Shown here piece by piece: positions 7,701 through 30,474 of a DNA stretch of 30,474 bases. This stretch comes from a virus. The notes beneath the pieces were generated by a model. That model worked only from the letters and a program-made list of their open reading frames with translations, was not told the origin of the DNA and did not search any database. The translations under genes were made by a program, and so were the position numbers. The stretch covers positions 1 to 30,474 of the IMG/VR virus record IMGVR_UViG_3300030117_005245. One strand, given 5' to 3'. Each line of letters starts with the position of its first letter. Within the stretch, counting starts at the first letter, position 1.

Positions 7701-10700
7701 ATATAAGTGGTAGAAAAAGAGATGAATCTGATTTTTCAGATATCACCACTGCTACTCCTGTCATAAGAGGAAAAATTGTTTCTGTTCATGTAAATCAGAA
7801 GGGTAGTAACTTTGGTTCAACAGTTATCAACGATAACTACAAACCAGTAATAGAACCTACTACTGGAGATAAGGCATTCTTACAACCATTCATTGTAAAT
7901 GGACAGGTTGATCAAATCATCATCAAGCATGGAGGTGAGAACTTCTTTAATACAGATATAATCATCACAGGTGATGGTATAGGAGCAAAAGCAAGAGCAA
8001 ATGTTTCTAATGGTGTTATAACCAGTATTGATATGATAGAAAAGGGTGCTGGATATACTCAACAAAGAACTACTGCTACAGCAAAAACGCCAGGTCAAGG
8101 TGCTATCTTCTCAAGTGAGGTCAAGAAGTGGACTATCAACCAAGTAGAGAGATATGCCAAGTTTGGTGACGTAAAAGAAGATGATGGATTCTTAGAGACA
8201 CCAAGAGATTTTGATTTAGGTAATCCATATGTAAATTATTACGTGCCACGAAATCTAAGAAACTTCTTAGGTGACTTTGGACAAGATCACTCACCTATTC
8301 TTGGTTGGGCGTATGATGGCAACCCAATATACGGACCTTTCGCTGTAGTGGATGGTAAGAAAAAGTATATTGAATCAAGTTATCGTAAGTTAGCGAGTTC
8401 AAGAGTTGACGGACCTAATATTAGCATTTACCCTGCTGGATTCTTCGTAGAAGACTTCACATACGTAGAAGGAACAGGTGATCTTGATGAACATAATGGT
8501 AGATTTGCTCCTACACCCGAATATCCAAATGGTGTGTATGCATACTATACAACACTTGAAGAGACAGAGGTTATCAACCCTACCAGTCCATTCAACAACT
8601 CTAGGACACCAGTTTTCCCATATATTGTTGGTGATACATATCACTCTAAACTACAGACATTCAATAATACATATGAGGCAAATCAAGACTTAGATTTGAT
8701 CTCTCTAAATCTTGTAAGAAATACTGAACCTTATAATATTACTGAGTATGAGTATGTTGCACAAGCGAATAGGAACACACTTATAAACTCTAAAGTTGAG
8801 AAGACAAGTAGTGGTAGTATTGATAGAATTGATATTGTTACTGCAGGTAAAAATTATAATGTTGGTGATAAGTTAGTATTTGACAATAATCTTACTGGTG
8901 GTTTTGGTGCTATAGGTAAAGTAAATCAAGTTGAAGGAGTTGGTATTACTACACTTACTTCTACAATCACTGAAATAGAGGACATTGTTCTCGTTGCGAA
9001 TGCAAGTAAAGTTACTGGTATTCACACAGGACCTATAGGCATTGCTGATAATTCTTATGTTGAGATTATAGGTATATCAACAACCACTCACTCTAATCTT
9101 GCTGTACGTAATGCACGAATCAACCTAAAAGAAGTAAGCACTGGTCTTGGTGTTTCTATGGGTCACATAGGACTCACCACGAGTGTTCTAATCACTGATT
9201 GGATACCAGATGTTATAAAAGGATATAAGTTCAAGGTCAATGACACTGTACAGATTGATAACGAGCAACTCAAGATAATAAATTTTGACGTAAAGAATAA
9301 TAGACTAGAATTACTAAGAGCACAGCATGGCACAGCAGGTGCTGCACATACATTTGGGTCTAATATTACCAGAGTAGAAAATGAATTTACATATCAATTA
9401 GACAAACCAATCAATCTGACTACTGATGAAGATGTTTCTTATTACTTCAGTGCTGAATCAGTGGTTGGTACAGGAAATACATTTGGTGTTGGAATTGGTA
9501 CTACAGTCACAGTAGCTGGAAGAGGTGGGCATCAATTAGTATCATTCTTTGGAAATGAGACAAAAGATATATTCATACCGACAAGATCAATCTATATGCC
9601 ACGTCATCCATTCAAAACAGGTGACAAAGTAGAGTATAGTCCTGGTGCAGGTACATCTATAGGATATCAAACAGATGCAATGAAGAGAGTGGCAACATCA
9701 TTCATTAGACCTCTACCACCTGAAGTGTATGTACAGGTTTTGGATAATAATCTTATTGGTATTGTGACTACACAAACAGGCATCGGTTCTGACCTTGATA
9801 GAGTGATGTTTATGGGTAATGTATCAATTGGAAATACACACTTCTTCAAAACTAAGAAAGATGTTGTCACAGGCACACTAAGAATTATTAGCGTTACAGC
9901 GTCTTCTCCAAATCATACATTTGAAAGGAATGACACTCTTGATTTGACTGTTGTATCATCTGCAACCAGCTCTGTCACTGCACAATATGATTCTGGGTCT
10001 AGATACGTAAGTATAGGATCTTCAGTCAATCCACCAATATCACTTATAAGAGGTGATACACTAGAAATAAACACAGAAGATATATCTTTAGAAAATACAA
10101 AATTATCATTCTTCTTAGATCCAGATTATAAAAAACCTTTTGTAGGAACAGGTAAATCTGCTATTGAAATAGTCAATACGGGTATACCTGGCAATGCTGG
10201 TTCTTTGACAACGATCAACTTCACTGATCGTGTACCAGATGTATTGTATTATAAGTTTTTACCACTACAGAATACAAAAACAATTGAAGTCAATAAAGAG
10301 ATAAAAGATTATTCTAAGATATTTGTGAATCCAAGTAAATTTACAGGTAAACATACTATCTTATCAAAAACCAGTGATACCTTCAATTTCAACTTATTCA
10401 CTGTGCCTGAAAAGGTAGGATACACAAGTGAGTCGCAGATTTCTTACAGAACAAATTCACCAAACGTCAGAGGTGGTGTTGTAAGAGTATTGTTGCAGGG
10501 TGGTGGATCAAATTACACAGATATCCCTCAGGTTTCAGTAGCATCCACAACTGGATCATCTGCTAACCTCAAAGCATTTGGTTCTAATGTTGGTAAATTG
10601 GATGATGTAAAATTAGTTGATACTGGATATGATTATCCATCTGATTTGACGTTACAACCACAGGCAGCAGTGCCACAAGTATTGTTCTTGAAGGATAACT

Positions 10701-13018
10701 TTGCTGTTGATAGTGTAGCAATCACATCAACAGGTAGAAATTATCTTTCACCACCTGACTTTGTTGTTTACAATAGTAAAACAGATACTATAAACGAAAA
10801 TGCAGAATTTGAAGCAGAACTTATAGGTGGATCTGTATCAAATGTCAAAGTTATATTTGCTGGTGGTAATCTAAGTTCAGGTGATGTTGAATTATTTGCT
10901 GTCAATAATACTAACGGTATTGGTATTATAAGTTGCACCTATTCTGACCCCAATGTAACACTAAGACTACAAACTCCTCTAGGAGGATTCAACACAGCCA
11001 CACCGCTACCATTTGAAGTTGGTGATAAGGTGTTTGTGGAGAACACAGGTGTTGCTACAGGTAATGGATACAACTCTGCTGACTATGGATATCAGTCATT
11101 CACACTAACTGGTGTCAATACAGCATTTGGTAATGTCAACCAAGCAACATTGACTTATGAAGTTGATAAAGATCCTGGCATCCACGATCTCGCAAAGTAT
11201 GGTGTAGTAGTAAAAGACAAAGATCTTGCTAAATTTGAAGTCAATTTGATTGAAAGTTCATTCTTGAATGGTGAACCAGTTGTTTCATCATCAGGACAAG
11301 AGTCAAGAGTTATAATAGGTAAAGGAAAAACAAGAAATGTACTAAGAGTTGATTCTCTAGTTGGATTCAATACAGGTGATGTTGTTACTGGTAAGTTCTC
11401 TAAAGCAGGTGGTACAATTGAATCATCACAGGCATATGAAGGATACTTTACTCTTGATACTTCATTTGAGAAGGCATTTGGTTGGGAAAGAGATACAGGT
11501 AAACTCAATGACTTCTATCAAAGAGTTCAAGACAATGATTACTATCAAAACTTTGCATACTCACTCAAGAGTTTTGTAGGTATCAATAGTTGGAGTGAAC
11601 CAGTTGACTCTCTCGCTCACATAGCAGGTTTCAAAAAACACTCTGATCATCTTATCAACTCTGTGCCTACCACCAGTTCACAACCTGCAGGTATATCATC
11701 AGGGGCTGGTAATGTTGTGGTTATTGATTCACAAGCATCATTACTTGATACACATAACTTTGATCTTGTTAGTGAAAATACTAACCTTGATGAGAATATA
11801 AGTGACGAAGTTCAATTCTTATCTGGTAGATTTGGTGATGGTCTAATATGTAAGACAAACCGTGTATTAGAACTAGATGACATCAGTCCTCAGTTCTATT
11901 CAGATCCAAACCTTATTAGGTCAGTTGAACTTGATACATTTGACATGTTGACAGGAGGACCTGCAGGTGATGGTATTAGTGCTATCAAATATTATGCTCA
12001 AGTTGTCCTTGATGTGGCATCTGGTGTAGCATTCAATGCTACTCAGTATTCAGAGTTCGTTGTCTTCCATGATGGCACAACAGCATACCTCAACACATAT
12101 TCAGAACTATCTGATGCTGACGACTTAGGTGAATTTTCGGCAGAAGTGAACGGACCTCTTGCCAGTGTTCTATACATTCCTACCAACTCAGCGTTAGAGT
12201 ATGACATTACCTTCCATAAAGAGATAATTACAAACGGTGTGGGTGTAGCATCTACTGCTTTTGGATTGATGGAATACAAGGGTATAACTAAGTCACTTGC
12301 AGTAAGTAATACACTACAAGATGTTGATGAAATAGATGCCACCATGTATAAGTCTGGAAGTATCCTAGTATCAGCAAGAGGACCTAATGGTGAGAAAGAA
12401 ATTGATGAATTCTTATGGTTGGTTGATGGAACTGACAATGTGATATTCACTAATACTGGTAATATGGATGCTGATACAGATATAGGTACATTTTCATTGA
12501 ACAATGTCAGTAACGTATTGAAGTTACAGCACACACCTCCTGTAGGTATGGCAGTGACAGTATCATCTCTTACTAGGGCAGTAGGTGTGGCACAAACACA
12601 TGGTAATTCTGGTATTGTTGATGAATATCATATTGGTGACACTATGTTAGACAGTTCATTTATACAATTACCTGCCAATGGATCACCAAGTCAACAGATT
12701 ATATCAGAGAAAGCATATGCGAACTATACAACATGTAGATTCCATGTTGAGATACACAACACAACTGATGATGAGTATTCTGTATTCATAGTTGGTTCAA
12801 ACTCATACGGTGGTAATGCAACGTATAACACATATAATAACCTGTACACAGATGATACTATGAAGAGAAATATGACAAATACTATCATACATATTACAAG
12901 TACAAGCACTCAATTAAAATTCTTACCCGTTGCGAATAAAGCGTATACGATAAGAACTCATGAAATCAAAATTGATAAACCAGATATGGTCGCAAACAAC
13001 GAAACCGTAACATACTAA
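4745..13018 (+). CDS. 7: Giant baseplate wedge protein in the gp7 position, with YHYH domain
   Basis: 2757 aa, far longer than T4 gp7 (1032 aa). The N-terminus has IPEVIGDDNPLLGEFLKQYY, then DFYKSKGTEEAFKILFGALYGE (residues about 199-220), a segment shared by phage wedge proteins. A YHYH-type domain spans roughly residues 1160-1285, with GWAYDGNPIYGPF (about 1187-1199) and TPEYPNGVYAYY (about 1256-1267). Several beta-rich modules recur: IDNEVISYTGI-type (about 95, 332 and 1505), YFVxxxDxxxxxL-type (about 590, 835 and 940) and GSxYxxxPxxxV-type (about 705-775, 1020-1110 and 1915-2050). The C-terminus holds three degenerate copies of one beta-sandwich-like domain (about 2411-2505, 2528-2615 and 2655-2752). 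By position it should nucleate the wedge and reach the baseplate rim. The gp7 name rests on position and N-terminal resemblance. Confidence 0.78.
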   Translation: MIQTSLTKVKIHEIIESQIPEVIGDDNPLLGEFLKQYYISQEHQGGPIDIAENLVEYKGLDFLNTKNLIGFTSVTKYASARDDVIYVNSTDGWPNQYGLLKIDNEVISYTGIGSTSFEGCIRGFSGIENNNRTNQPEYLTFTQTGIGTHGVDSRVHNLSNVFLQEFMKKLKKQVLSGFAERKLDEKLDQSNFIRQSKDFYKSKGTEEAFKILFGALYGEKVEMIQPSKYIISPSDAEYRVNEVLICELISGDPLKITGESIIQKTTPLETSGSITGVEKAVFGGKTYYKIALSKGTIIGKFQQVGKTFITRSATTGSTVIDVDSTVGFGATGYIEFEDRLISYSGKSLTQFTGISTLTSPCGIGSTVRSGLIATSYEEGDLGLPVRFNVLGVLNKFVGSAINQQEESELNIKQLGRIENGLKYSTWIYNTSSTYAIERYTLKSANSYNFKLAASNFSLYVGDEIEVIDQTDPDNKLNGTITFVFDESQDDSISVSVPTLDTTKKYKIRRKLKIQKDRTADVQNTYTDGSAVHVASNSLPHWTIDPQKRIRSFTNVGVNTTTVEINVPDHDFYDGDLVAYSSSGIGTLANLNEGESYYVKRVDSSTVKLAFTGENVRRGQFITAFTGSDIGSQTSHTLTPDSLFGTDLGAQKIIRKFSEPEFGDVKDKTVQGGVGLFANGVEAYSYKSSDVVYFGPLESVEVLNTGSDYDIVSPPRLTVSQDGHNGIGASVIAQVEGTLQEILIDNEGSDYEETPTVKVIGGNNSTAIVKAKMKFVNQVVEFDATSTGGVVRTAANDFSFSSPHNLIAGEQVIYETNGSTPIGIGVTPGTLVDTATYFVVKRNPNTIISLADNKEDALAGIGTIPLTTNGGGIQRLRTVDRRLKVDKILVEDSGFFKNREVHTSTGINTFTDTINIKSHGFSNFETVKYSSTESAIGGLTNNSQYFVDKIDDDSFRLSDNKDLTSFISLTDDGLGEHIFQDPPISIDISGRKRDESDFSDITTATPVIRGKIVSVHVNQKGSNFGSTVINDNYKPVIEPTTGDKAFLQPFIVNGQVDQIIIKHGGENFFNTDIIITGDGIGAKARANVSNGVITSIDMIEKGAGYTQQRTTATAKTPGQGAIFSSEVKKWTINQVERYAKFGDVKEDDGFLETPRDFDLGNPYVNYYVPRNLRNFLGDFGQDHSPILGWAYDGNPIYGPFAVVDGKKKYIESSYRKLASSRVDGPNISIYPAGFFVEDFTYVEGTGDLDEHNGRFAPTPEYPNGVYAYYTTLEETEVINPTSPFNNSRTPVFPYIVGDTYHSKLQTFNNTYEANQDLDLISLNLVRNTEPYNITEYEYVAQANRNTLINSKVEKTSSGSIDRIDIVTAGKNYNVGDKLVFDNNLTGGFGAIGKVNQVEGVGITTLTSTITEIEDIVLVANASKVTGIHTGPIGIADNSYVEIIGISTTTHSNLAVRNARINLKEVSTGLGVSMGHIGLTTSVLITDWIPDVIKGYKFKVNDTVQIDNEQLKIINFDVKNNRLELLRAQHGTAGAAHTFGSNITRVENEFTYQLDKPINLTTDEDVSYYFSAESVVGTGNTFGVGIGTTVTVAGRGGHQLVSFFGNETKDIFIPTRSIYMPRHPFKTGDKVEYSPGAGTSIGYQTDAMKRVATSFIRPLPPEVYVQVLDNNLIGIVTTQTGIGSDLDRVMFMGNVSIGNTHFFKTKKDVVTGTLRIISVTASSPNHTFERNDTLDLTVVSSATSSVTAQYDSGSRYVSIGSSVNPPISLIRGDTLEINTEDISLENTKLSFFLDPDYKKPFVGTGKSAIEIVNTGIPGNAGSLTTINFTDRVPDVLYYKFLPLQNTKTIEVNKEIKDYSKIFVNPSKFTGKHTILSKTSDTFNFNLFTVPEKVGYTSESQISYRTNSPNVRGGVVRVLLQGGGSNYTDIPQVSVASTTGSSANLKAFGSNVGKLDDVKLVDTGYDYPSDLTLQPQAAVPQVLFLKDNFAVDSVAITSTGRNYLSPPDFVVYNSKTDTINENAEFEAELIGGSVSNVKVIFAGGNLSSGDVELFAVNNTNGIGIISCTYSDPNVTLRLQTPLGGFNTATPLPFEVGDKVFVENTGVATGNGYNSADYGYQSFTLTGVNTAFGNVNQATLTYEVDKDPGIHDLAKYGVVVKDKDLAKFEVNLIESSFLNGEPVVSSSGQESRVIIGKGKTRNVLRVDSLVGFNTGDVVTGKFSKAGGTIESSQAYEGYFTLDTSFEKAFGWERDTGKLNDFYQRVQDNDYYQNFAYSLKSFVGINSWSEPVDSLAHIAGFKKHSDHLINSVPTTSSQPAGISSGAGNVVVIDSQASLLDTHNFDLVSENTNLDENISDEVQFLSGRFGDGLICKTNRVLELDDISPQFYSDPNLIRSVELDTFDMLTGGPAGDGISAIKYYAQVVLDVASGVAFNATQYSEFVVFHDGTTAYLNTYSELSDADDLGEFSAEVNGPLASVLYIPTNSALEYDITFHKEIITNGVGVASTAFGLMEYKGITKSLAVSNTLQDVDEIDATMYKSGSILVSARGPNGEKEIDEFLWLVDGTDNVIFTNTGNMDADTDIGTFSLNNVSNVLKLQHTPPVGMAVTVSSLTRAVGVAQTHGNSGIVDEYHIGDTMLDSSFIQLPANGSPSQQIISEKAYANYTTCRFHVEIHNTTDDEYSVFIVGSNSYGGNATYNTYNNLYTDDTMKRNMTNTIIHITSTSTQLKFLPVANKAYTIRTHEIKIDKPDMVANNETVTY

Positions 13019-17726: not shown

Positions 17727-20700
17727 ATGCCACAGAACACCAACCTAAACGTCAGTCCATATTTTGATGATTTTGATTCATCAAAGAACTTCAATCGAGT
17801 TCTTTTCAAACCTGGCAGTCCGATACAAGCAAGAGAACTAACCACACTTCAATCTATTCTGCAAAATCAGGTAGAGAAGTTTGGTAAACACATCTTCAAA
17901 GAGGGATCTATGGTGATTCCTGGTGTGTTCAAATATGACAACCAATACACTTCTATCAAAATTGAGTCTACATTTTTTGGTGTTCCTGTAGAATTATATT
18001 ATGATAAGTTGGTTGGTGTCAGTATAAAAGGAAAAAATTCTGGTATCACAGCGAAGGTAGTAAAGGTGTTATCTTCAGCTAATTCTGAAACTAATAATAC
18101 TACCTTATTTGTCAAATATGAAAAGAGTTCTGATGATTATTTGTCTGAACAATTTTCAGATGGTGAGACACTTACTACATTAGCAGACATAAACTATGGT
18201 GTAACAACCATTTCAAATGGTTCTGACTTTGCAACTGCAATAAATTCTAATGCGACATCTATTGGTTCAGCATTTACTATTACACGAGGTGTATTTTTTG
18301 CTAGAGGTGTATTTGTAGAAGTATTACCCGAAACACTTATACTTGATCAATATGATAATTTACCATCTTACAGGGTAGGATTCAATGTCAAAGAGGAGAT
18401 TGTCACTGCTGTTGATGATAACAGTTTATATGATAATGCTGCTGGATTCTCCAATTACACTGCTCCTGGTGCTGATAGGCTCAAGATTAGTTTATCTCTC
18501 ATTAAAAAACAATTAGATGATTTCCAAGATGAAAGTTTTATTGAGTTGCAGAGACTTGATGCAGGTGAATCAAAGAAAATTATCGAGACAACATTATATG
18601 GCGAATTAGCAAAAGAATTTGCGAGAAGAACATATGACGAGAGTGGTGATTATTATGTCACTAAGTTTGATTTAGAAGCAAAAGAGTGTTTGAATGATAG
18701 ACACTCTGTGTTCGGCACATTCTTCCCTGAGAACAAAACAGATGAGGGTAATGTACCATCAAAAGATTTATTGAATATAAGAGTAGGTCCAGGTAAGGCA
18801 TACGTAAAAGGATATGAAACTAAAACAGTAGGATCAAACTATATTGATGTAGAGAAACCTAGAACAACAAGATTAGTTGAGTCTTCTGCGGTTCCTTTCC
18901 AAGCAGGGAATAGACTAAGATTGAATAATGTTCTTAGTTCAGCAAGAATAAATCTATCTGCTTCTACATCAGACTACCTTGACTTACGTAGTGCAAGATT
19001 AGGTGCAACTAAATCGACTGCTGCTGGTAGTTCTATTGGTAGGGCAAGAGTATACGATTACAAACTACAGAATGCAGGTTACACAGGTAACTCAAGTGTG
19101 TTTGAAATATTCCTTTTTGACATACAAACAGACACTCAAATTACTATAAATCAAGCACACAGTATTGCTTTACCTGCTGTGATAGAAGGTAGAAATAGTG
19201 GTGCAAGAGGTTTCTTACGCACTGCCCTTTCAAGCAATACTGTATTGCAATTGAATCAAGTTTCAGGTTCTTTCTTACAAGATGAGCAAATAATAATAAA
19301 TGGAGAACTAAATGGTAGGGTTATTACATCCGTAACTGACTATGACCTAAGTGATGTCAAATCAGTTAGATCTACAGCAGGTGGTAGAACATTCTCTGCT
19401 GATGTTTTATTAGAAACTAAGAAAGATTTTACAGGTAGATCATTTACCATAGCAGGTGCATCTGGTGGCACATCAATCGTCACCAGTGGTACAGCTGGTT
19501 GGGTATCAAGTTTCAAAGTTGGAGATGTAGTGGCATATAAACGTGCTAGTCAAACTGATGTCACATTCAACGTTGTAAGTGTTATAAGTCCCACTAATAA
19601 TAATATTACTATTACAGCAGCACCAAACACAATTTCAGGTATATGTCATAAAGCACTTCCTACTGCTGCGGTAACTGTGAGTGACCTCAAGATTGTATCT
19701 GGTAAATTGAGAAACTCTTCAAGTGGTTTCTTATACTCAGAATTAGCAAATAAAAATATAGAATCTTTAGATCTCACTGATTCACTATTACAAACAAGAG
19801 TAGAAAATACAGGTCAAAGTACAGATGGTAGTGGTCAAATGGACTTGCCATCATTGACTGGCACAGACGTAGTTTATGCACCATTTGATGAAGAAAGATA
19901 TACAGTCGTATACTCTGACGGAACTGTAGAAGACCTTACATCAGATCAAGTTGTTATTACAGGTGGTGGTAAAGGTGTCACATTATCAGGTTTGACTGCT
20001 TCTCAATCTAGTGTAGTTGTACATAGCACACAACAAAAATCAAAAGTAAAATCTAAACAAAAGACTCTTGTCAGAGAAGCGAAAAAAATAATTACTGGAT
20101 CAAGTAGAACAAACTCAGGTATATCTACAGGTGTCGGTGATGGTCTTACACCAAGCACTGTGTTTGGTAAGAGAGTTCAAGACAGAGAGATATCTCTAGA
20201 TGTTCCTGATGTTGTAAACATAGTTGCTGTATTTGAATCATCTGGCACAGGTGATGCGGTTGTACCTAACATGACACTAGGTTCATTCAATGGACCTAAC
20301 GGTAATAATACTGATGTTATTGTTGGTGAGATTGGGGTAGGAAAGAGTTCTGGTGCATCAGCACAGGTGTTAGCAAGAAGTGGAACAACTAAAGTAGATG
20401 TGCTATTCAAAAATAATTCAGCGTTTGTAGAGAATGAAGAAGTGATATTTGAAGAGAGTGGTGTAAGAGCAATACTATCAAATGTAGAATCAGGTGATCC
20501 TAATATCAGAAATAATTTTATTCTTGATACAGGACAGAGAGCCGAGTATTATGATTTTGGTAGATTAGTTCGTAAGCAAGGGTTCCCAGAACCTCAAGGT
20601 AAACTCACAATCTTCTTTGATCATTATATTATAAACTCAGAAGACTCTGGTGACATTCTTACAGCCAATAGTTATACAAAGAACAATTATGATGGTGTAC

Positions 20701-23700
20701 CTGCTTTTGATAACATAAGAAATACTGACGTTATTGATCTAAGACCAAGAGTAGCAGCGTACAGTGGCACTAGATCTCCATTTGAATTTGATTCAAGAGA
20801 TTTTAGTGGAGGTGGACAATCACCTGTAGTTCTAGTTACTGATGAGAATATAACTTTTGATTACAATCACTACCTTGGTAGGATAGATAGATTGTTCTTG
20901 AATAGAGACTCAACATTCACAATACAGCAAGGAACACCTGCTGTAAAACCAGTTGAACCAGAGAGTATATCTGAGTCATTTGAATTGGCAAAGATAACCT
21001 ATCAACCATATGTTTATAATGCAAAACGTGAAGTAAAAATTGATTTCCGTGCTAACAAACGTTACACGATGAAGCAGATAGGTGACCTTGATGAGAGAAT
21101 AAGAAACATAGAAGAAGTCACAGCACTATCTCTTCTAGAAAACAAAACTGAAAGTCTTGTAATTACAGATCCTACTACAGGTCTTGATAGATTCAAAAAC
21201 GGTTTTGTTGTAGATCCATTCCAGAATTTCCTTGTTGCAGACAAGACAGTTCCATTCCTCAAATATGATATAAATGAAGGAAAACTCACAGCAAGGAAAC
21301 ACTCTGATAGTGTCGATCTCCTTATTGGTTCTGCTAGTGTTGTGGGCACTAATGGCAGCCCAGATCTTTCAGTTGACCCTAGATTCGCAACCGATTTAGG
21401 TTCACCAAATATCAAGATGACAGGCGATCTTGTCACTTTGGATTACACTGAGGTGTTGGATAGAGAGCAACCTTTTGCTACAAGAGTTGAAAATATAAAC
21501 CCATACATGATGAGGAGTTGGAACGGTAATCTCGTTCTAAATCCAGAATCTGATGTCTTTACCGAAAGAGTATTTGAGGTGCAAGATGATGGTATAGGAT
21601 TCTCTAATGACATAATCATAGAAGAAGAAGCAATACCAAATATGAGAGAGCAGAACATTGCGTTTACTGCTACTCGTCTAAAACCTGGTACAAATCACTA
21701 CAATTCATTTGCTGGTGAGGATATGATTGAAAATAATATCCGTACCATACCAAAACTATTAGAGGTAACACCCATACAGGGTGCTTTCCAAGTAGGTGAA
21801 ACAGTAAGAGGTATCTCAGTATCTACACAGAATGCAAGTCAGGGTGTGGATCTTAGATTTAGATTAGCATCACCAAACCATAAAGAAGGACCTTTCAACA
21901 ATCCTACTATCACGTTCCTCAATAATCCATATGCAGCGAACGTGGGTTTATCATCTGCATACTCTGAAACTACAACTGTATTGAACGTTGATATACAGTC
22001 ATTGAACCAGAAGTCTGATGGTAACTTCTTTGGGTTCGCACTTGTAGGTATGAAATTGGTTGGAGAAACCAGTGGAGCTGAGGCAGAAATAAATCAACTC
22101 AGATTGATAACTGATGAGCTTGGTGCGGTATTGGGATCATACTATATTCCGTCAGATAGATTTGAAAATGGTACAAACACTGCATTGCTCTCTAGTCTAA
22201 GACCTCAGGATAGTTTTCCTGGATTGAACTTCTCTAGAGCTGCAGCAGACCACTTCTCTGAGGGTACTTTGATAACAAATACTACCCTTGAGAGAACAGA
22301 GCCAGCACCTCCTGTAATACCTGAACCTATAGTATTCAATATCACTAATATAACAAACAATATTACAAGGATACAAAATACTGTTATCAACAACTTTCAA
22401 GAGGATGATGATGACCCACTAGCACAGACATTCCAAGTAGAAGAAAATCCTGGTATCTTTATGACATCAGTAGACTTCTTCTTTGCAACTAAGTCGGACA
22501 CTATACCGTTAGATGTTAGAGTTGTGAATGTGGTCAATGGATATCCATCAAGAAACATTGTTAAAAATGGACAAGTAATATTGAATCCTGATCAAGTCAA
22601 TGTATCATCAGATGCTACTGTACCAACTACATTTACATTCCCATCTCCAATCTACTTACCTAGAGGAGAGTATGCTTTTGTTGTAGTAACTGCAACATCT
22701 GAATATAATCAGTGGATCTGTCAAGTGGGTGAGGCTGACATATCGACAGCTGAAAACACTGAACTTGGAAAAGTTATAGTAACAAAACAACCGTCACTAG
22801 GTTCGCTGTTCAAGGGTCAGACAGCTGGAACATGGACTCCATCTCAGTTGGAGGATATGAAGTATGTGGCAAGGAAGGCGAAGTTTACACTGAACTCAGG
22901 TACAGTCAGATTGTATAATCCTCAATTAGATACATTCGACAGTAGAAATAATCTTTCAGAAAATCCTATAGAAACATTCTCAAAGCGTGTGACAGTAGGT
23001 CTTGGATCTGCCATCGCTGATGGTATCATAGACCTTGGTACAGAGATCAAACAAGATGCCAATACGGGAGCATCAGGTATTGTGGCAGCAAAACTTGGAC
23101 ATCTTGGACAAAATACCAGCACACTTTCTATCACGAATGGGGGAGCAGGTTACGAGGATTCAACATATACTGTTACTTTTGTAAATCTTACTGGTAGTGG
23201 ATCAGGAGCTGTAGGTGTTGTCACTGTCTCTGGTGGTGAAATCACTCAGGTTACAGTGGTAGATGGTAGCACTGGAACTGGATATCAGGTGGGTGATACT
23301 TTGACTGCTTCTCTTGGTACTAAGGGATTAGGACAGAATCTACGTCTAACTGTTGGTGTCACAACTGGTATAAACTCACTTCTTCTTACCAATAGTAAGG
23401 GCACATTTGATACAACAAATCCAATACAGTATCATGATGCTACGTTAGGTTATGGTGTTACTGTCAACAATATCATACCATCCACAGTAACAACAAATAC
23501 TGATCAGTATGATGGACTACATTTCAAAGTCTCTCATCCTAATCATGGAAACTATGCTGCAAATAATACAGTCAAGATAAATGGTATCACTGGTGATACT
23601 GTCCCAACAAAAACAACTGTTGCGTATGGGGTAAGTGACACGAGTGTGGTTAGTGTGGCAAGTAGTATAGGATTCAATTTCTTTGAGGGAGCACAAGTAA

Positions 23701-24806
23701 CAGCCAGCAATCCTGGTTTTGCATTACTAGGTGATGAAATCATACAGTATACATCTGTTGGTGCCAACCAGTTGAGTGGTACTATAACCAGAGGTAATGA
23801 TGATACGTTTGCAAGGACCTATCCAGTAGGAACACCTGTACAGAAATATGAATTGTCTGGTGTATCTCTTAGAAAGATAAACACACAGCACTCTTTGATA
23901 AATGTATCCACATCTATTGAAGATAAAGTTACTCTCGATTCATATCATGTCAAGATCACTGGTTCTACCTTATTCTCTAAGGACAAACCTGGTGGTGGAA
24001 CAAGAGGTAAAGGAACAACAAACGTATTATTCGATACTGTTTCACCTGCAATTGCACACAGTATACCTAAGGGTACAGTTGTCAATGCAAGTTTGAGAAC
24101 TACATCTGGCACAAGTGTAAGTGGTAGTGAGGCATCATTTGCAGATAAGGGTTATGAAAGTATCTCCCTTGTAAATAAAACAACATTCCCCTCAGTCCGT
24201 ATGGTTGCTTCTAAGGCAAATGAGGCACAACAACTTACAGCATTACCTGGTGAAAAATCAATGACACTTGATTTGAATTTATCTACAGATAATGAAAACG
24301 TATCACCTGTCATTGATGCATTCAAGAGTTCCATCAATGTAACAACAAATAGGATAAATAGACCTGTTGATAACTATGCTCTAAGCAGTAGATCTAATCA
24401 ACTTGATGATCCACATAATCAATTATATCAAACTAAAGTGATCATGTTGGAGAACCCTGCTACATCACTCAAAGTGATATTCGGTGCGTTCAGACCACCA
24501 GCTGCAGACATCAGAGTATTGTATAGATTGTTTAGAGCAGACAATGATTCTCTAGATAAGGTGTTTGAATTGATGCCAGGTTATGAGAACTTAGACTCTG
24601 CTGGATTTGTTATTTCAGAGAAAAATAATACTGGTAGACCTGATAGGAACGTAGTTCCTAGTTTGGAAGATCAGTTCTTAGACTATGAATTCACAAAGAA
24701 TGGTTTACCACCATTTACAGGATTCCAAGTGAAAGTTGTCTTCTCATCAACAAACCAAGCACAAGCACCAGAACTTCTAGACTTTAGAGCAATCGCAGTA
24801 GCCTAA
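17727..24806 (+). CDS. Giant DUF4815-containing baseplate/tail-fibre network protein
   Basis: 2359 aa. The N-terminus YFDDFDSSKNFNRVLFKPGS, then QARELTTLQSILQNQVEKFG and HIFKEGSMVIPG, is the DUF4815 signature found in tail proteins of marine T4-like phages. A hydrophilic NIT-rich helix or coiled coil (about residues 1536-1560) precedes DDDPLAQTFQVEENPGIF and SVDFFFATKSDTIPLDVR. This block recurs in large phage fibre-connector proteins. A Gly-Tyr module (ITNGGAGYEDSTYTV, about 1802-1880) and an RGNDDTFARTYPVGTPV module (about 1972-2048) echo modules in the other giant proteins. The C-terminal VIMLENPATSLKVIFGAFRP region is also family-like. It follows gp8 where T4 has genes 9 and 10, which link wedges to tail fibres. 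I infer that role but do not assign a T4 name. Confidence 0.82.
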   Translation: MPQNTNLNVSPYFDDFDSSKNFNRVLFKPGSPIQARELTTLQSILQNQVEKFGKHIFKEGSMVIPGVFKYDNQYTSIKIESTFFGVPVELYYDKLVGVSIKGKNSGITAKVVKVLSSANSETNNTTLFVKYEKSSDDYLSEQFSDGETLTTLADINYGVTTISNGSDFATAINSNATSIGSAFTITRGVFFARGVFVEVLPETLILDQYDNLPSYRVGFNVKEEIVTAVDDNSLYDNAAGFSNYTAPGADRLKISLSLIKKQLDDFQDESFIELQRLDAGESKKIIETTLYGELAKEFARRTYDESGDYYVTKFDLEAKECLNDRHSVFGTFFPENKTDEGNVPSKDLLNIRVGPGKAYVKGYETKTVGSNYIDVEKPRTTRLVESSAVPFQAGNRLRLNNVLSSARINLSASTSDYLDLRSARLGATKSTAAGSSIGRARVYDYKLQNAGYTGNSSVFEIFLFDIQTDTQITINQAHSIALPAVIEGRNSGARGFLRTALSSNTVLQLNQVSGSFLQDEQIIINGELNGRVITSVTDYDLSDVKSVRSTAGGRTFSADVLLETKKDFTGRSFTIAGASGGTSIVTSGTAGWVSSFKVGDVVAYKRASQTDVTFNVVSVISPTNNNITITAAPNTISGICHKALPTAAVTVSDLKIVSGKLRNSSSGFLYSELANKNIESLDLTDSLLQTRVENTGQSTDGSGQMDLPSLTGTDVVYAPFDEERYTVVYSDGTVEDLTSDQVVITGGGKGVTLSGLTASQSSVVVHSTQQKSKVKSKQKTLVREAKKIITGSSRTNSGISTGVGDGLTPSTVFGKRVQDREISLDVPDVVNIVAVFESSGTGDAVVPNMTLGSFNGPNGNNTDVIVGEIGVGKSSGASAQVLARSGTTKVDVLFKNNSAFVENEEVIFEESGVRAILSNVESGDPNIRNNFILDTGQRAEYYDFGRLVRKQGFPEPQGKLTIFFDHYIINSEDSGDILTANSYTKNNYDGVPAFDNIRNTDVIDLRPRVAAYSGTRSPFEFDSRDFSGGGQSPVVLVTDENITFDYNHYLGRIDRLFLNRDSTFTIQQGTPAVKPVEPESISESFELAKITYQPYVYNAKREVKIDFRANKRYTMKQIGDLDERIRNIEEVTALSLLENKTESLVITDPTTGLDRFKNGFVVDPFQNFLVADKTVPFLKYDINEGKLTARKHSDSVDLLIGSASVVGTNGSPDLSVDPRFATDLGSPNIKMTGDLVTLDYTEVLDREQPFATRVENINPYMMRSWNGNLVLNPESDVFTERVFEVQDDGIGFSNDIIIEEEAIPNMREQNIAFTATRLKPGTNHYNSFAGEDMIENNIRTIPKLLEVTPIQGAFQVGETVRGISVSTQNASQGVDLRFRLASPNHKEGPFNNPTITFLNNPYAANVGLSSAYSETTTVLNVDIQSLNQKSDGNFFGFALVGMKLVGETSGAEAEINQLRLITDELGAVLGSYYIPSDRFENGTNTALLSSLRPQDSFPGLNFSRAAADHFSEGTLITNTTLERTEPAPPVIPEPIVFNITNITNNITRIQNTVINNFQEDDDDPLAQTFQVEENPGIFMTSVDFFFATKSDTIPLDVRVVNVVNGYPSRNIVKNGQVILNPDQVNVSSDATVPTTFTFPSPIYLPRGEYAFVVVTATSEYNQWICQVGEADISTAENTELGKVIVTKQPSLGSLFKGQTAGTWTPSQLEDMKYVARKAKFTLNSGTVRLYNPQLDTFDSRNNLSENPIETFSKRVTVGLGSAIADGIIDLGTEIKQDANTGASGIVAAKLGHLGQNTSTLSITNGGAGYEDSTYTVTFVNLTGSGSGAVGVVTVSGGEITQVTVVDGSTGTGYQVGDTLTASLGTKGLGQNLRLTVGVTTGINSLLLTNSKGTFDTTNPIQYHDATLGYGVTVNNIIPSTVTTNTDQYDGLHFKVSHPNHGNYAANNTVKINGITGDTVPTKTTVAYGVSDTSVVSVASSIGFNFFEGAQVTASNPGFALLGDEIIQYTSVGANQLSGTITRGNDDTFARTYPVGTPVQKYELSGVSLRKINTQHSLINVSTSIEDKVTLDSYHVKITGSTLFSKDKPGGGTRGKGTTNVLFDTVSPAIAHSIPKGTVVNASLRTTSGTSVSGSEASFADKGYESISLVNKTTFPSVRMVASKANEAQQLTALPGEKSMTLDLNLSTDNENVSPVIDAFKSSINVTTNRINRPVDNYALSSRSNQLDDPHNQLYQTKVIMLENPATSLKVIFGAFRPPAADIRVLYRLFRADNDSLDKVFELMPGYENLDSAGFVISEKNNTGRPDRNVVPSLEDQFLDYEFTKNGLPPFTGFQVKVVFSSTNQAQAPELLDFRAIAVA

Positions 24807-25736: not shown

Positions 25737-26156
25737 ATGTCTAATATTAGACTAAGTTCATCACATGCTGACGACGACATAGGGGCACAACCATCAGTTA
25801 GATTTTCTAGAGACAAAGAAGTACTTGACATTGCACGAGATGATGAGTTCTTTATTGTGAGTCTAGGTGAACAGAGAACTGTATTCACTGCTGGAGACGA
25901 AGAAGTGGCAAATCTAAGAGACATCTCAGATATTAATTCAAGTATGATAAGTGCAGGGATAGGCACAAGCTTTATCCTAACTTATGATGCTGTAGAAGAT
26001 AATTTCAAATTTGTTTCTCCAGATGCTATTGTAGACTCTGCTGTAGGTAATGTATCAGGTCCTGCTGGATTCAGTGATCAAGTTATAAACAACCTTGTCG
26101 ATACCCTTGACGTAGAACTAGATGATAAGATTGATCTCGACGCTGGAACTTGGTAA
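25737..26156 (+). CDS. Small virion-associated protein, unknown role
   Basis: 139 aa, acidic. It begins MSNIRLSSSHADDDIGAQPS and has a central GIGTSFILTYDAVEDNFKFV strand region of the kind found in phage fibre proteins that describe a parameterised beta surface. It ends DDKIDLDAGTW. The closing IDxGx-aromatic motif also ends the following tail fibre (TIDGGSF), which suggests a shared C-terminal docking or folding feature. The gene starts one base after the preceding stop. No enzyme signature is present. I infer a minor tail component or a partner of the fibre. Confidence 0.62.
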   Translation: MSNIRLSSSHADDDIGAQPSVRFSRDKEVLDIARDDEFFIVSLGEQRTVFTAGDEEVANLRDISDINSSMISAGIGTSFILTYDAVEDNFKFVSPDAIVDSAVGNVSGPAGFSDQVINNLVDTLDVELDDKIDLDAGTW

Positions 26157-26159
26157 TTT

Positions 26160-26167
26160 AATAAATA
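26160..26167 (+). promoter_or_regulatory. Late-promoter box before the tail fibre gene
   Basis: AATAAATA, extended as TTTAATAAATATAT, matches the late consensus NATAAATA. It lies 22 bases before the tail fibre ATG at 26189, in the 32-base gap after the previous stop. An AGGA at 26172-26175 is too far from the ATG to be a strong ribosome site. Confidence 0.6.
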
Positions 26168-26188
26168 TATTAGGAAAAACAAACAGAA

Positions 26189-27751
26189 ATGGCTGCTCCA
26201 GTATTACAGTTTAAAAGAGGTAACCTTGCGAGTTTGCCAGGTTTACAAGCAGGTGAACCAGGTTTCACCGTAGATAAAAATGATCTATATGTTGGTATAG
26301 ACTCTACAACAGGTAACAACCAATTCATAGGATCAGGAAGATTTTGGGATAAAGGAGATGCCACTAACGCCTCAGGTGTAAAATTAGTAGAGGCACAGAA
26401 CAATGGTGCAAGTGCTATCACTCTCAAGGCACCTGCTTCATTGTCAGACAACCAAACCTACGTGATGCCAGCAGAGGCAGTCAATAATGGTTTCTTGAAA
26501 TGTAATTCATCAGGAGAATTCTCATGGGATACTGCACCTCAAAACTCTGGAGCAGTTAGCGATATTGCAGTAACAGACGAATCATCTGATACTACATGTT
26601 TCCCGATGTTTTCTACCAGTGCAACAGGTGACATTCAACCTAAGACTGGATCTAACCTCACATTCAATTCATCATCAGGACAACTCACAGCGTCAACATT
26701 CTCAGGTAACCTCACAGGTGCTGTCACTGGTAATGTCACAGGAAATGTGACGGGTGATTTGACTGGTAATTCTTCTGGAACACATACTGGTGCTGTCACT
26801 GGTAATGTCACAGGAGATCTCACAGGAGATGTCACAGGAGACGTAACTGGTGATCTAACAGGAAACGTAATTGGTAATATAAGTTCTGCATCTAGTGGTG
26901 TTGTGATAAGTCCAGCTAACGGAAAACTTGTAGTTGAGGGTGATACTGGAAGTTCAAAAGTAGGAAGAATACAACTACAATGTCATGTAAACAGTCATGG
27001 TCAAACAGTAAGTTCTCAACCTCATAGTGAGTCAGCAACTAACGACCTGAAGTTACCAGGTGGAAGTACAATAGGTAATTCTGACGCAACTCTCGTTTCT
27101 GATACAGGTACACAGACACTCACCAACAAAACTCTAACTGCACCTACTATTACTGGTGCTGGTGCAATCGCTGGTGTGTTCACTGGTAACATCACTGGTA
27201 ATCAGTCAGGTGGTACAGTTTCTGCTACATCAGCAGCAGTAGCCGACCTTACATCTGGAAGAGTTGTACTTGCAGGTACATCAGGTGAATTAGAAGACAG
27301 TGGTAATCTTACCTTTGACGGTTCTACAATGACAGTCACAGGTGCTGCAAGCGTAACAACCAACTTGACTGTTGGTGGTAACTTGACAGTAAACGGTACT
27401 ACAACACAGGTCAATACAACAAACACAACTATTGAAGATGTTCTTCTTGAACTACAAGTGGTTGACGGTGGAGCACTTAGCAGTGACACAGATAAAGACG
27501 TTGGTCTTGTATTGAACTACTACAGTGGTTCTGCGAAGAAAGCAGCAATATATTGGGATGACTCAGCAGGTAGAATAGTACTAGGTGGAGAAGTATCTGA
27601 ATCAGCAGGGGTATTGACAGCGAGTGCATACTCAGGACTAGAGATTGGATCTCTATATGTAAATGACTGTGCAGGTCAAACACAAGTTATATCTTGCTCT
27701 GGCACAACAAGATCATTAGAAAATATAACCATAGACGGTGGCTCGTTCTAG
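26189..27751 (+). CDS. Tail fibre-like protein with Val-Thr-Gly repeats
   Basis: 520 aa. The N-terminus PVLQFKRGNLASLPGLQAGE, then PGFTVDKNDLYVGI, is the attachment-type domain found on many cyanophage fibres. It resembles the N-terminal domain of phage tropism determinants. Residues about 172-230 form a shaft of GxVTGxxTG repeats, for example AVTGNVTGNVTGDLTGN. Further on come TQTLTNKTLTAPTITGAG and NLTVGGNLTVNGTTTQVNT followed by NTTIEDVLLELQ, a module shared by many phage fibres. The C-terminus carries two Cys (DCAGQTQVISC) and ends ITIDGGSF. Such proteins form trimeric beta-helical fibres that bind the host surface. The gene has its own late box upstream and a stem-loop after it. No chaperone gene or reverse transcriptase is visible next to it. 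Confidence 0.8.
   Translation: MAAPVLQFKRGNLASLPGLQAGEPGFTVDKNDLYVGIDSTTGNNQFIGSGRFWDKGDATNASGVKLVEAQNNGASAITLKAPASLSDNQTYVMPAEAVNNGFLKCNSSGEFSWDTAPQNSGAVSDIAVTDESSDTTCFPMFSTSATGDIQPKTGSNLTFNSSSGQLTASTFSGNLTGAVTGNVTGNVTGDLTGNSSGTHTGAVTGNVTGDLTGDVTGDVTGDLTGNVIGNISSASSGVVISPANGKLVVEGDTGSSKVGRIQLQCHVNSHGQTVSSQPHSESATNDLKLPGGSTIGNSDATLVSDTGTQTLTNKTLTAPTITGAGAIAGVFTGNITGNQSGGTVSATSAAVADLTSGRVVLAGTSGELEDSGNLTFDGSTMTVTGAASVTTNLTVGGNLTVNGTTTQVNTTNTTIEDVLLELQVVDGGALSSDTDKDVGLVLNYYSGSAKKAAIYWDDSAGRIVLGGEVSESAGVLTASAYSGLEIGSLYVNDCAGQTQVISCSGTTRSLENITIDGGSF
26704..26880 (+). repeat. Tandem Val-Thr-Gly-encoding repeats in the tail fibre
   Basis: Units of about 12 bases of the form GGT(A/G)ANGTCACA encode G-N/D-V/L-T. 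A 27-base stretch at 26717-26743 recurs exactly at 26789-26815, 72 bases further on. Smaller near-copies fill the rest. The stretch codes for the fibre shaft, and slippage or recombination between copies could change shaft length. Confidence 0.8.
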
Positions 27752-27753
27752 CA

Positions 27754-27779
27754 TATATAATTGGTATTATATAATTTTT
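27754..27779 (+). terminator. Possible AT-only terminator after the tail fibre
   Basis: TATATAAT (27754-27761) pairs with ATTATATA (27766-27773) around a TGGT loop, and TTTTT follows at 27775-27779 after one A. The stem has no G-C pairs, so it is weak. The two TATAAT hexamers it contains (27756-27761 and 27770-27775) could instead be a -10 element for the next gene, but no fitting -35 is seen. Confidence 0.35.
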
Positions 27780-27783
27780 CATC

Positions 27784-27966
27784 ATGAATGAAGAAGTAAA
27801 TTCAGTTCTTCAAGTATATCAAACCAGAATCAACGCTCTCACTGCTCAGAACATTGCTTTTGAGGCGAGGATTTTGACGCTTACTAAACAGATACAAGAA
27901 CTTCAAGCACCTGCACCTGAAGTAGATGGTGGGGAGATAGAAGATAAGGCAGCATCTAAAGAGTAG
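27784..27966 (+). CDS. Small coiled-coil protein
   Basis: 60 aa. The segment VYQTRINALTAQNIAFEARI, followed by LTLTKQIQELQ, has a clear heptad pattern, then a Pro/Glu-rich acidic tail. There are no Cys, no membrane segment and no Shine-Dalgarno sequence. The last 64 bases overlap, in antisense, the end of the reverse-strand deoxyribosyltransferase-like gene. It lies directly after the tail fibre. An accessory or trimer-forming role is possible but unproven. Confidence 0.6.
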   Translation: MNEEVNSVLQVYQTRINALTAQNIAFEARILTLTKQIQELQAPAPEVDGGEIEDKAASKE

Positions 27967-28307
27967 AACATATCTGCAACTTGATTCATAACTGGATGTT
28001 TGTGCACAAACTCATCATCTGAAATGATGATTACTTTTTTGCCGAGTGCATGACCGTATGATATCTCAAATATCGTACCGTAAGATGGTCTTCTCTCATT
28101 TATTGACTTAGGTAGATGGGCAAAGACTATATCACAATTCTCAACATTCAGTTTTGTATCTTCAAATATTTCAGACTGACTACCTAAATGATATTTGGGT
28201 ACGATAGTTTCTATCGTGTCTGGTACTTTACTTTGTACGTAAGATCTCCATAGGAATATTTCTTCTTCCGTGCATATTTCTATAGGTCCTGCCAAATAAA
28301 TTTTCAT
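27903..28307 (-). CDS. Nucleoside 2-deoxyribosyltransferase-like protein
   Basis: 134 aa, the only reverse-strand gene I accept in the window. It begins MKIYLAGPI, the first strand of the nucleoside 2-deoxyribosyltransferase family. It continues with an NCDIVFAHL strand and the signature YGTIFEISYGHALGKKVIII, where the Glu of 'GTxxE' is the usual catalytic nucleophile and Asp of the CDIV strand is a substrate contact. The length fits the family. Enzymes of this fold exchange or hydrolyse bases of deoxynucleosides or their monophosphates. The fold is related to TIR domains. The C-terminus (SPPSTSGAGA) is encoded antisense to the small coiled-coil gene and may be disordered. The start ATG shares CATG with the divergent sulfotransferase-like gene. 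Roles could be nucleotide salvage, modified-base metabolism or counter-defence; only the family is supported. Confidence 0.72.
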   Translation of the reverse strand: MKIYLAGPIEICTEEEIFLWRSYVQSKVPDTIETIVPKYHLGSQSEIFEDTKLNVENCDIVFAHLPKSINERRPSYGTIFEISYGHALGKKVIIISDDEFVHKHPVMNQVADMFYSLDAALSSISPPSTSGAGA

Positions 28308-29055
28308 GATAAAGGACGAACAACTTATATTTTATATAGCAGTGCCTGGTAGTGGATGGGCAAAACTTTCACTACTACTGGGATGTTGTGCTAAGATGAA
28401 TCTCAATAAATCTGATAGAAGAGGGGATAGAGAGGAGACAGGTAAAGATGGAGATACAGGATGTGTTCATCATAAGGGAGCATTCTGGGATCCTCTTATG
28501 GAATTTGGTGAGGGTTTTGATGATCTAGAGAAAAATCATACTAGAGAATCTTTCAAGGCTGAATGCCTTAGACCATTCACTGAAATCAATGACCAGAACT
28601 ATCTAATTAGATCACACTTTTTTGCAGAGACTAAGAACCTGAATTGGCTGCGGAAGAATTTTCCCAATAATAAAATAATCTTGGTACTAAGAGATACTAA
28701 GTTATGTTATGAAGGGTGGAATATTGCCATGACTTTTACTGGTAATTATCCAAAGTACAAAGCATGGATGAAGGTAAAAACACAGGAGCACCATCCACTG
28801 AACTATGAGAAACTAAAGATGCTCATTGAGAGACATGATAAAATGATAAGAGAATTTGTAAGAGATAATGATTGTTATATAATCCAACCTAATAAAACTT
28901 TCATCAATAAATTAGGATATATCTGGGATGATGAAGGTAAAGAGGAATATGAAAAATTGATTATGGTGCATCAGTTTTTCAAATCTGAAGTTCCAATGTT
29001 TGACGCACCTTTTGCATTTTATAATTGCGATGACTTATTCACAATTCAGGCATGA
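28306..29055 (+). CDS. Sulfotransferase-like protein, first of two tandem paralogs
   Basis: 249 aa. After DEQLIFYIAV comes PGSGWAKLSLLLGCCAKMNL, a loop in the place of the 5'-phosphosulfate-binding loop of PAPS-dependent sulfotransferases (usual form PxSGTT). A strand with Arg, KIILVLRDTK, is where the 3'-phosphate-binding R-D-P motif sits. The conserved block HKGAFWDPLMEFGEGFDDL and the SHFFAE segment are shared with the next gene. The basic residue before SG in the loop is absent, and no Ser follows the Arg at the usual spacing, so sulfuryl transfer is uncertain; a P-loop kinase-like fold is the alternative. The ATG lies in the CATG shared with the divergent gene. Confidence 0.5.
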   Translation: MIKDEQLIFYIAVPGSGWAKLSLLLGCCAKMNLNKSDRRGDREETGKDGDTGCVHHKGAFWDPLMEFGEGFDDLEKNHTRESFKAECLRPFTEINDQNYLIRSHFFAETKNLNWLRKNFPNNKIILVLRDTKLCYEGWNIAMTFTGNYPKYKAWMKVKTQEHHPLNYEKLKMLIERHDKMIREFVRDNDCYIIQPNKTFINKLGYIWDDEGKEEYEKLIMVHQFFKSEVPMFDAPFAFYNCDDLFTIQA

Positions 29056-29803
29056 ACAACTTATCTTTATGATTGGACTGCCTGGTTCAGGCTGGTCTAA
29101 GATGGATAATCTGCTGAGATGTTGTAGTAAGTTCAGAGCAAACAAATCTGATTATGAGGGTAGATGGGAGTCTTATGGTAATAAGACTTTGTATAGAGAG
29201 CACAAGGGTGCTTTCTGGGATCCAGGTATGGAGTTTGGTGAGGGGTTTGATGATCTTAGGAATCACACTAAAGAAACTTTTATAGAACAATGCTTAGGTC
29301 CGTATACAGACATAAACGAGGATGATAATTACTTTGTCAAATCACATTTTTTTGCTGAAAAACATAATCTGGAATGGTTAGATACAAATTTTCCAAACAA
29401 TAAGATGGTATTTGTATTACGTCCTAAAGAGTATTGTGATGATAGGTGGTTATCTACCATGACATTTACTAAACACTATCCAAAATATACTGCATGGCAA
29501 GTAGAAGATGATCCAGACGAGGAAGTTGGTGATCATAAAAAAATAAATCAGGACAGCATGAGAGAGATCAATAGAAGACATGATTTATCAATGAGATCTT
29601 TTATAAGAGAAGCGACAAAACAAACCATAATATTATCTCCCACAAAATCATCTCTTGATCAAATGGGTATGGTGTGGGATAAAGATGGTTACCTTGAATA
29701 TGCTGCATATATAAAAAACTACGCTGTAAGTAAAGCACTCACTCTATCTCCATCATGGGACACATCTTTTTGTTTGTATAATTGTAATGGAATCTTATTT
29801 TAA
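29030..29803 (+). CDS. Sulfotransferase-like protein, second of two tandem paralogs
   Basis: 257 aa from the ATG at 29030. An earlier ATG at 29000 would overlap the previous gene by 56 bases, and the paralog alignment favours the start just before FRHEQLIFMIGLPGSGWSKM. The loop PGSGWSKM, HKGAFWDPGMEFGEGFDDL, the SHFFAE and NFPNNK segments, and VFVLRPKEYC all align with the preceding protein. The RP in VLRPKE is closer to the sulfotransferase 3'-phosphate motif than in copy one. The region after MTFTKHYPKYTAW carries an acidic insertion (DDPDEEVGD) not found in the first copy. It overlaps the first copy by 26 bases and the methyltransferase by 17 bases. Enzyme class is motif-based only. Confidence 0.5.
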   Translation: MTYSQFRHEQLIFMIGLPGSGWSKMDNLLRCCSKFRANKSDYEGRWESYGNKTLYREHKGAFWDPGMEFGEGFDDLRNHTKETFIEQCLGPYTDINEDDNYFVKSHFFAEKHNLEWLDTNFPNNKMVFVLRPKEYCDDRWLSTMTFTKHYPKYTAWQVEDDPDEEVGDHKKINQDSMREINRRHDLSMRSFIREATKQTIILSPTKSSLDQMGMVWDKDGYLEYAAYIKNYAVSKALTLSPSWDTSFCLYNCNGILF

Positions 29804-30293
29804 TGGAATCTGGAAAGACACGAATTATCAATACCTTGAGCATTCTGGCTATTCTTTGGTCGATTACGTTAATAATAAAAAACCATCTAGTGTCTTAGAT
29901 GTAGGGTGTGGGTATAATAGACTCAAAAGTTTGATTCCAAATCTCATTGGTATAGATCCTTTCAATGATGCTGCAGACATCAAGACATCATTAGAAGAAT
30001 ATAAGTCAGTGCCATATGATATAGCACTGTGTTTAGGTTCTATAAATTTTGGTGATGAGGAAACTATTGATAAACAGATAGATAAACTACACACACTGTG
30101 GAGAAGAGAAGCAATATTCAGAGTCAATCCTGGCATACCTCATGCAGGGTGGGATGACTTCATTGAGTGGTATCAATGGACACCAGAAAAAATAAAAGAT
30201 ATTGCGAAACGATACAATTACACTTTAGAATGCTTGAAAATGGAATATACAAAAGAAAATGCTCTCAGGTATTTTTTCATATATACTAAATAA
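29787..30293 (+). CDS. SAM-dependent methyltransferase (class I-like)
   Basis: 168 aa. Motif I, SSVLDVGCGYNRLKSL (about residues 34-49), has the Gly-rich loop, and the second strand NLIGIDPF ends in the acidic residue that binds the ribose of SAM. YDIALCLGSINFG is the motif IV strand. The C-terminal KMEYTKENALRYFFIYTK forms the last beta hairpin. The protein is short for the family, so the substrate-binding part is minimal. It starts inside the end of the second sulfotransferase-like gene and is probably translated with it. Acceptor unknown; carbohydrate or small-molecule methylation is an inference from the neighbours. Its stop codon overlaps a late-type box for the next gene. Confidence 0.72.
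   Translation: MESYFNGIWKDTNYQYLEHSGYSLVDYVNNKKPSSVLDVGCGYNRLKSLIPNLIGIDPFNDAADIKTSLEEYKSVPYDIALCLGSINFGDEETIDKQIDKLHTLWRREAIFRVNPGIPHAGWDDFIEWYQWTPEKIKDIAKRYNYTLECLKMEYTKENALRYFFIYTK
30286..30292 (+). promoter_or_regulatory. Late-promoter-like box before the last gene
   Basis: CTAAATA, identical to the box at 2183-2189, spans the last Lys codon and stop of the methyltransferase. The next ATG is 24 bases downstream. It implies that the following gene is expressed late. Confidence 0.5.
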
Positions 30294-30315
30294 CATTGTA
30301 GAAACTTTTATAAAA

Positions 30316-30474
30316 ATGCTTTCAGGAACAGATTTCGTCAAGAAGATCAAGGAAGGTAACAAGGAACTATTTGAAGCATCACGCTCAAATGTTCGTCGTT
30401 TCTTTGCATCAAAGCCAAGCGACGAGTATCTTGTCGAGCACTTCCGTGGACGTATGGTCAACGAAGCTCAGAAC
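30316..30474 (+). CDS. Start of an unidentified, probably highly expressed gene, open at the right edge
   Basis: 53 codons from ATG 30316 to the window end with no stop: MLSGTDFVKKIKEGNKELFE, then a basic segment with NVRRFFASKPSDEYLVEHFR. All five Arg codons are CGC or CGT and all five Lys codons are AAG, whereas the upstream genes use mainly AGA and mixed AAA/AAG. Such a shift often marks abundant structural proteins. The N-terminal part is helical and charged. I do not recognise the family from 53 residues. A late-type box lies just upstream. Confidence 0.7.
   Translation, partial: MLSGTDFVKKIKEGNKELFEASRSNVRRFFASKPSDEYLVEHFRGRMVNEAQN

Follow-up and report, generated by a model that had tools for sequence, protein, structure and literature searches.

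A sulfotransferase-like and methyltransferase gene pair and a cassette exchange slot beside the tail fibre of a probably T4-like marine phage

Do the small group-transfer enzyme genes found next to a phage tail fibre act together, and on what? The question is raised by IMG/VR record IMGVR_UViG_3300030117_005245, an uncultured viral fragment that we analysed over its whole 30,474 bases (hereafter the window). Near its right end, four ORFs are bordered by a tail fibre gene (26189-27751) on one side and, on the other, by a gene that begins at 30316. A preliminary description had read them as one compact operon, composed of a deoxyribosyltransferase-like gene, two sulfotransferase-like genes and a methyltransferase, that would decorate a glycan or a small molecule or, alternatively, produce something nucleotide-based, either a modified nucleotide or a signal in defence. 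The four ORFs and their coordinates were confirmed: all of them, which we call NDT, ST1, ST2 and MT, have homologues in other viral contigs, and dN/dS ranges from 0.04 to 0.13 wherever it could be computed, a sign of purifying selection indicating that all four are working genes and not chance ORFs. The interest attaches to the ST-MT pair, which is conserved, and to the exchange slot adjoining MT, rather than to a four-gene operon.

The large protein encoded at 17727-24806 shares about 42% identity with its counterpart in T4-like Synechococcus phages such as S-CAM9. In addition, psbA is present in two related contigs (L008 and L096; L numbers designate the contigs and loci compared), and the island of a third, L028, includes a ferredoxin-dependent bilin reductase gene (PF05996, 91.6 bits; 10787-11413, minus strand) between two P-loop genes of the GSGNH type described below. 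The psbA genes and the bilin reductase indicate cyanobacterial hosts. We consider the source to be probably an uncultured, marine, T4-like phage of cyanomyoviral lineage, and a cyanobacterial host is likely for the window fragment too, judging from these relatives. The island lineage is almost absent from the 50,697 phage records searched: megablast with positions 26100-30474 returned zero matches to phage records, tblastn with NDT, MT, FERR (the gene at 30316) and one GSGNH protein found none, and ST homologues appeared only in the single-cell virus AG-345-D19.

The upstream border of the island is the tail fibre, a plus-strand gene for a 520 aa protein with PHROG structural and tail-fibre matches, whose N- and C-termini are conserved among relatives. 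It is followed by a small coiled-coil-like ORF (27784-27966, plus strand, 60 aa), which the preliminary description did not include; its Pfam coiled-coil matches are weak, and homologues occupy the equivalent place in nearly all relatives. Next come NDT, of the nucleoside 2-deoxyribosyltransferase superfamily (27903-28307, minus strand, 134 aa), and then, all on the plus strand, the predicted sulfotransferase-fold P-loop protein ST1 (28306-29055, 249 aa), its tandem paralogue ST2 (29030-29803, 47% identity to ST1), the compact methyltransferase MT (29787-30293, 168 aa) and FERR, of which the first 53 residues (30316-30474) are encoded before the window ends. For ST2, the mechanically called TTG at 29000 lies upstream of a conserved ATG at 29030, and the latter was used. 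The overlaps reported for the forward junctions hold, with 26 nt shared by ST1 and ST2 (29030-29055) and 17 nt by ST2 and MT (29787-29803). The divergent start codons of NDT and ST1 share the palindrome CATG (28305-28308), with no intergenic room, and the 3' end of NDT overlaps the coiled-coil-like ORF by 64 nt; because of this arrangement and its minus-strand orientation, NDT falls outside the forward unit. The late-promoter-like sequence TATAAATA was found 55 times against 66 expected, with no signal above chance, and sigma-70-like sites also occurred only at chance level. Since both promoter scans remained at chance, timing is not readable from the sequence, and late expression is suggested by gene position alone.

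To compare the locus among relatives, we used ST, NDT, MT and FERR each as a seed of its own to retrieve related viral contigs, and mapped their gene order. A recurrent backbone was found, consisting of fibre, coiled-coil ORF, MT, FERR, two minus-strand GSGNH P-loop genes, a second fibre and a neck gene, with a variable slot between the coiled-coil ORF, its conserved left border, and MT. Among the 60 distinct MT alleles with a visible slot, 35 slots are empty, 14 hold ST without NDT, 8 hold NDT without ST and 3 hold both, counts which are pooled from several seeds and are therefore not population frequencies. The stretch from the coiled-coil ORF to MT is thus a cassette exchange slot beside the fibre, which may be empty or hold ST genes, NDT or both. 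Presence of NDT is unassociated with that of ST (Fisher P=1.0), and the eight NDT-only slots carry the gene in either orientation (five plus, three minus). Since NDT and ST occur independently, an outcome that the preliminary description had itself named as refuting, NDT is independent optional cargo and the four genes are not one unit, so the four-gene operon first proposed is not upheld by its conservation in relatives. ST2 is missing from L001 and L004 through an exact start-codon-to-start-codon join. Most close relatives have MT without ST (the 35 empty and 8 NDT-only slots), showing that ST is not required for MT and that their coupling is not absolute in the close lineage. We also detected, in the window's closest relative, a nitroreductase-like gene (L001:4680-5446, sub-threshold PF00881) between the fibre and the coiled-coil ORF.

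Structure prediction was needed for the pair, since its sulfotransferase and methyltransferase Pfam matches are below cut-off by sequence; a PDB sequence search with the ST and MT profiles gave no convincing match. The AF2 model of MT (pLDDT 87.4) retrieved methyltransferases with a Foldseek E-value of 3.4e-7 and a VIA Z of 14.6. The residues D38, G40, C41, G42 and N44 of motif I (D-x-GCG-x-N), together with D57, are invariant in 17 sequences. The predicted fold is unambiguously that of a class I SAM-dependent methyltransferase.

When distant loci were fetched by the MT profile alone, an ST homologue was found within 2 kb of MT in 23 of 26 distinct alleles, and in 16 of the 17 loci with at least 2.5 kb of flanking sequence on both sides. 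This proximity indicates that the ST-MT link predates the cyanophage lineage. The part of the proposed gene set that survives is this pair, coupled in distant phages, while close ones frequently have MT without ST. Two distant loci, L104 and L119, have the pair between fibre genes and near a GT8-like protein, a radical SAM enzyme and a Tyr-rich YTG-repeat protein. The repeat proteins (L104:3342-4400 and L119:3508-4503) look structural and contain long (Y-T-G)n repeats; they are candidate substrates for sulfation or glycosylation.

Our leading idea is that the pair decorates a surface glycan, the fibre or a small molecule. We hold with moderate confidence that the locus joins a sulfation-methylation module to a fibre-side slot with exchangeable cassettes, with the fibre or a glycan as the likeliest acceptor. 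ST1, ST2 and MT would form a forward unit, probably co-transcribed and translationally coupled through the overlapping ORFs. ST1 and ST2 would move a sulfuryl group from PAPS, which presumably comes from the host, and MT would use SAM as its methyl donor, all three acting on a common acceptor. That acceptor would most likely be the neighbouring tail fibre, or a glycan carried by the fibre or the host surface, and its modification, presumably late in infection, would alter adsorption or receptor availability. FERR may oxidise the same acceptor. A narrower version holds that the phage sulfates and methylates its own tail fibre, at tyrosine or at fibre glycans, by means of a divergent sulfotransferase and a methyltransferase dedicated to the task, while swapping of slot cassettes changes adsorption. 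It seems to us unlikely; sulfated phage virions, if it were true, would be new.

Another set of distant loci points in a different direction. In these, ST-MT lies beside genes for TctA/TctC (matches of 307.8 and 76.4 bits, respectively), a glutamine amidotransferase-like protein of class I or a tryptophan dioxygenase, contexts more in keeping with small-molecule metabolism than with decoration of the fibre. The nearest folds of MT also include the small-molecule methyltransferases ChlM and NodS. The pair, possibly with FERR, might accordingly make or modify a metabolite or signal that carries sulfate or methyl groups, the side of the fibre being a tolerated insertion site. However, fibre genes lie on both sides of the pair in the window lineage as well as in L104 and L119, and a complete pathway was recognised in none of the loci, so that we judge this explanation possible but rather improbable. 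The phage-encoded TctA- and/or TctC-like transporter genes adjoin ST-MT at L126:3746-6218 and in L099, L109, L111 and L191, and the dioxygenase gene, a short tryptophan 2,3-dioxygenase homologue (PF03301, 147 bits), is located between ST and MT at L100:6324-6830. L099, L111 and L186 have APS-kinase-like genes close to their ST homologues. The proteins encoded by these genes score far under the NCBIfam cut-offs, and for this reason we do not take this linkage as strong support for sulfation.

The chemistry of the module depends on the nature of ST1 and ST2, neither of which matches a Pfam sulfotransferase model above its cut-off. The AF2 model of ST1 has a pLDDT of 89.4 and a pTM of 0.90. Its 17 best VIA entries are all sulfotransferases, with Z decreasing from 9.7, to the tyrosylprotein sulfotransferase TPST1, to 7.5; tyrosylprotein sulfotransferases are the top matches. 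Foldseek returned nothing below E 0.001 (best E 0.065). Both genes are constrained, with dN/dS of 0.04-0.10 for ST1 and 0.06 for ST2 against L026. In the family, PGS.W, H104 and R129 are invariant. The 5'-PSB loop reads PGSGW where P[KR]SGT is usual, keeping P14 and S16 and having Gly15 at the place of the usual basic residue; a lysine is found at position 20, or at position 17 in L035-L037. H104 is present in 34 of 34 ST sequences within the motif [KR][SC]H. This motif resembles the K-[ST]-H that holds the catalytic base in cytosolic sulfotransferases, a putative equivalence drawn by motif and not by superposed coordinates. Arg129 occupies the presumed 3'-phosphate position, and the 3'-PB motif is incomplete, with Gly, Arg or Trp and never Ser eight residues further on. 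Owing to these atypical motifs we term ST1 sulfotransferase-like and do not file it among the PAPS-dependent sulfotransferases. Searching bacterial and archaeal genomes by tblastn with the ST profile found no relative, and thus no host homologue is available to lend ST a function. In terms of the identities first given to the genes, the assignments broadly stand: NDT passes its Pfam cut-off and the MT model is clear, while for ST the agreement extends to the modelled fold, the motifs being atypical.

We conclude that ST1 and ST2 are tandem paralogues with a predicted sulfotransferase-type fold, which most likely transfer a sulfuryl group with PAPS as the presumed donor. They could instead be P-loop proteins of another chemistry, either similar to kinases or serving as fibre chaperones that need a nucleotide, as the atypical 5'-PSB and 3'-PB positions, the weak Foldseek E-values and the adenylate kinases that come next in the VIA ranking (Z 7.3) would suggest. 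Nevertheless, the loop PGSGW[AS]K lacks the GK[ST] of a Walker A motif, sulfotransferases rank above all kinases in VIA across 170-190 residues, and the invariant His and Arg stand at sulfotransferase-like positions, which makes such a chemistry doubtful in our view.

Additional P-loop genes occur in the relatives. A second sulfotransferase-like family, with a CRDPVRRSWS motif and sub-threshold PF00685 matches, is not detectably related to ST1/ST2; it is found in tandem in the slot of L032 (8507-9730 and 9742-10938) and also between MT and FERR in L068, L069, L141 and L158. In most relatives FERR is followed on its 3' side by two P-loop families with a near-invariant GPQGSGNH motif, encoded on the minus strand (L002:8698-9318 and 9490-10275, for example). 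In hhalign the two families come out as homologues (E 6e-58); neither has a Pfam or NCBIfam identity. A sulfotransferase label for them, as ST3 and ST4, is not upheld, because profile comparison detects no homology to ST1/ST2.

As for FERR, the gene at 30316 is the one that the preliminary description called the next late gene; the sequence predicts a ferritin-like diiron protein, enzyme-like and part of the same island. Its 53 residues within the window are 92-100% identical to homologues, and a ligand set of two Glu and two ExxH (E50, E83xxH86, E143, E173xxH176) is present in 57 of 57 homologues. Pfam matches are weak and all below cut-off.

NDT scores 29.6 bits against PF05014 (gathering cut-off 28.8), with relatives reaching 34.5 and 45.1 bits, and it aligns with solved deoxyribosyltransferases (PDB 6qai, E 9e-4). 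The catalytic-triad positions Tyr4 and Glu81 are invariant in the alignment; the Asp/Asn column holds Thr51, with Asp or Asn at the neighbouring position 50, leaving a register doubt of one residue. The gene has a dN/dS of 0.06-0.12, and its product most likely acts on a nucleotide as an N-glycoside hydrolase or transferase. A nucleotide-based function would apply at most to NDT alone, and the suggested defence signal found no counterpart, as no defence family was matched at the locus by PADLOC. In another phage group (L043-L045), NDT-family genes lie amid PhoH-like, ThyX-like and exonuclease-like genes, named by eye from their translations. That the four genes, NDT included, form a dedicated operon for a modified nucleotide or defence signal is very improbable: adjacency in the window, L001 and L002/L003 and the precedent of DmtZ, whose family serves modified-DNA synthesis in phages (PMC12884076), would favour it, but NDT is on the opposite strand and independent of ST, its L043-L045 homologues have replication and nucleotide gene surroundings without ST or MT, a PADLOC match is absent, and the phyletic pattern largely refutes it.

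These results define a testable candidate for the purpose of phage sulfation. An ST-like gene and MT remain associated in distant marine phages, and such genes are swapped at a fixed slot on the side of the fibre, in phages whose hosts probably include some of the most common photosynthetic bacteria of the ocean. Should virions or the glycans of the host surface prove to be sulfated, this would represent a new layer of phage-host recognition.

The proteins of the locus can be compared with known enzymes. ST1 resembles TPST1 and TPST2 (PDB 5wrj and 3ap1) in its predicted fold across about 180 residues (Z 9.6-9.7, rmsd 3.6-3.8), in the PxSG loop and in a conserved Arg in the second nucleotide motif; it differs from them in sequence (11-15% identity), and it has neither the Lys/Arg of the 5'-PSB loop nor the 3'-PB Ser. 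The MT model shares its fold with the class I SAM methyltransferases cg3271 (3h2b), ChlM (4qdk) and NodS (3ofk) at Z 14.5-14.6, as well as the LDVGCG motif and an acidic residue after strand 2, whereas it is merely 168 aa long, is 10-18% identical to them and matches no named family in Pfam or NCBIfam. NDT has in common with its superfamily, including the trypanosomatid enzyme 2a0k and the phage enzyme DmtZ (PMC12884076), the PF05014 match and the aligned catalytic Tyr and Glu; its third triad residue is one position out of register, and it adjoins tail genes instead of a nucleotide cluster.

At the level of gene arrangement, no published description of the ST-MT pair or of the gene set was found in the open-access literature. 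OM43 phages carry a sulfotransferase-like gene similar to that of S-SRM01, with a function called unclear (PMC10580990); these proteins are members of Sulfotransfer_3, unlike ST1/ST2, and a methyltransferase is not mentioned in the text of that paper. The stretches of S-SSM7 and S-CAM9 that we examined contain no ST or MT homologue. Enzyme genes 3' of the fibre, as in the window, are known in T4-like cyanophages; in S-SSM7, for example, the fibre is followed by genes for a carbamoyltransferase, a halogenase and a nucleotidyltransferase.
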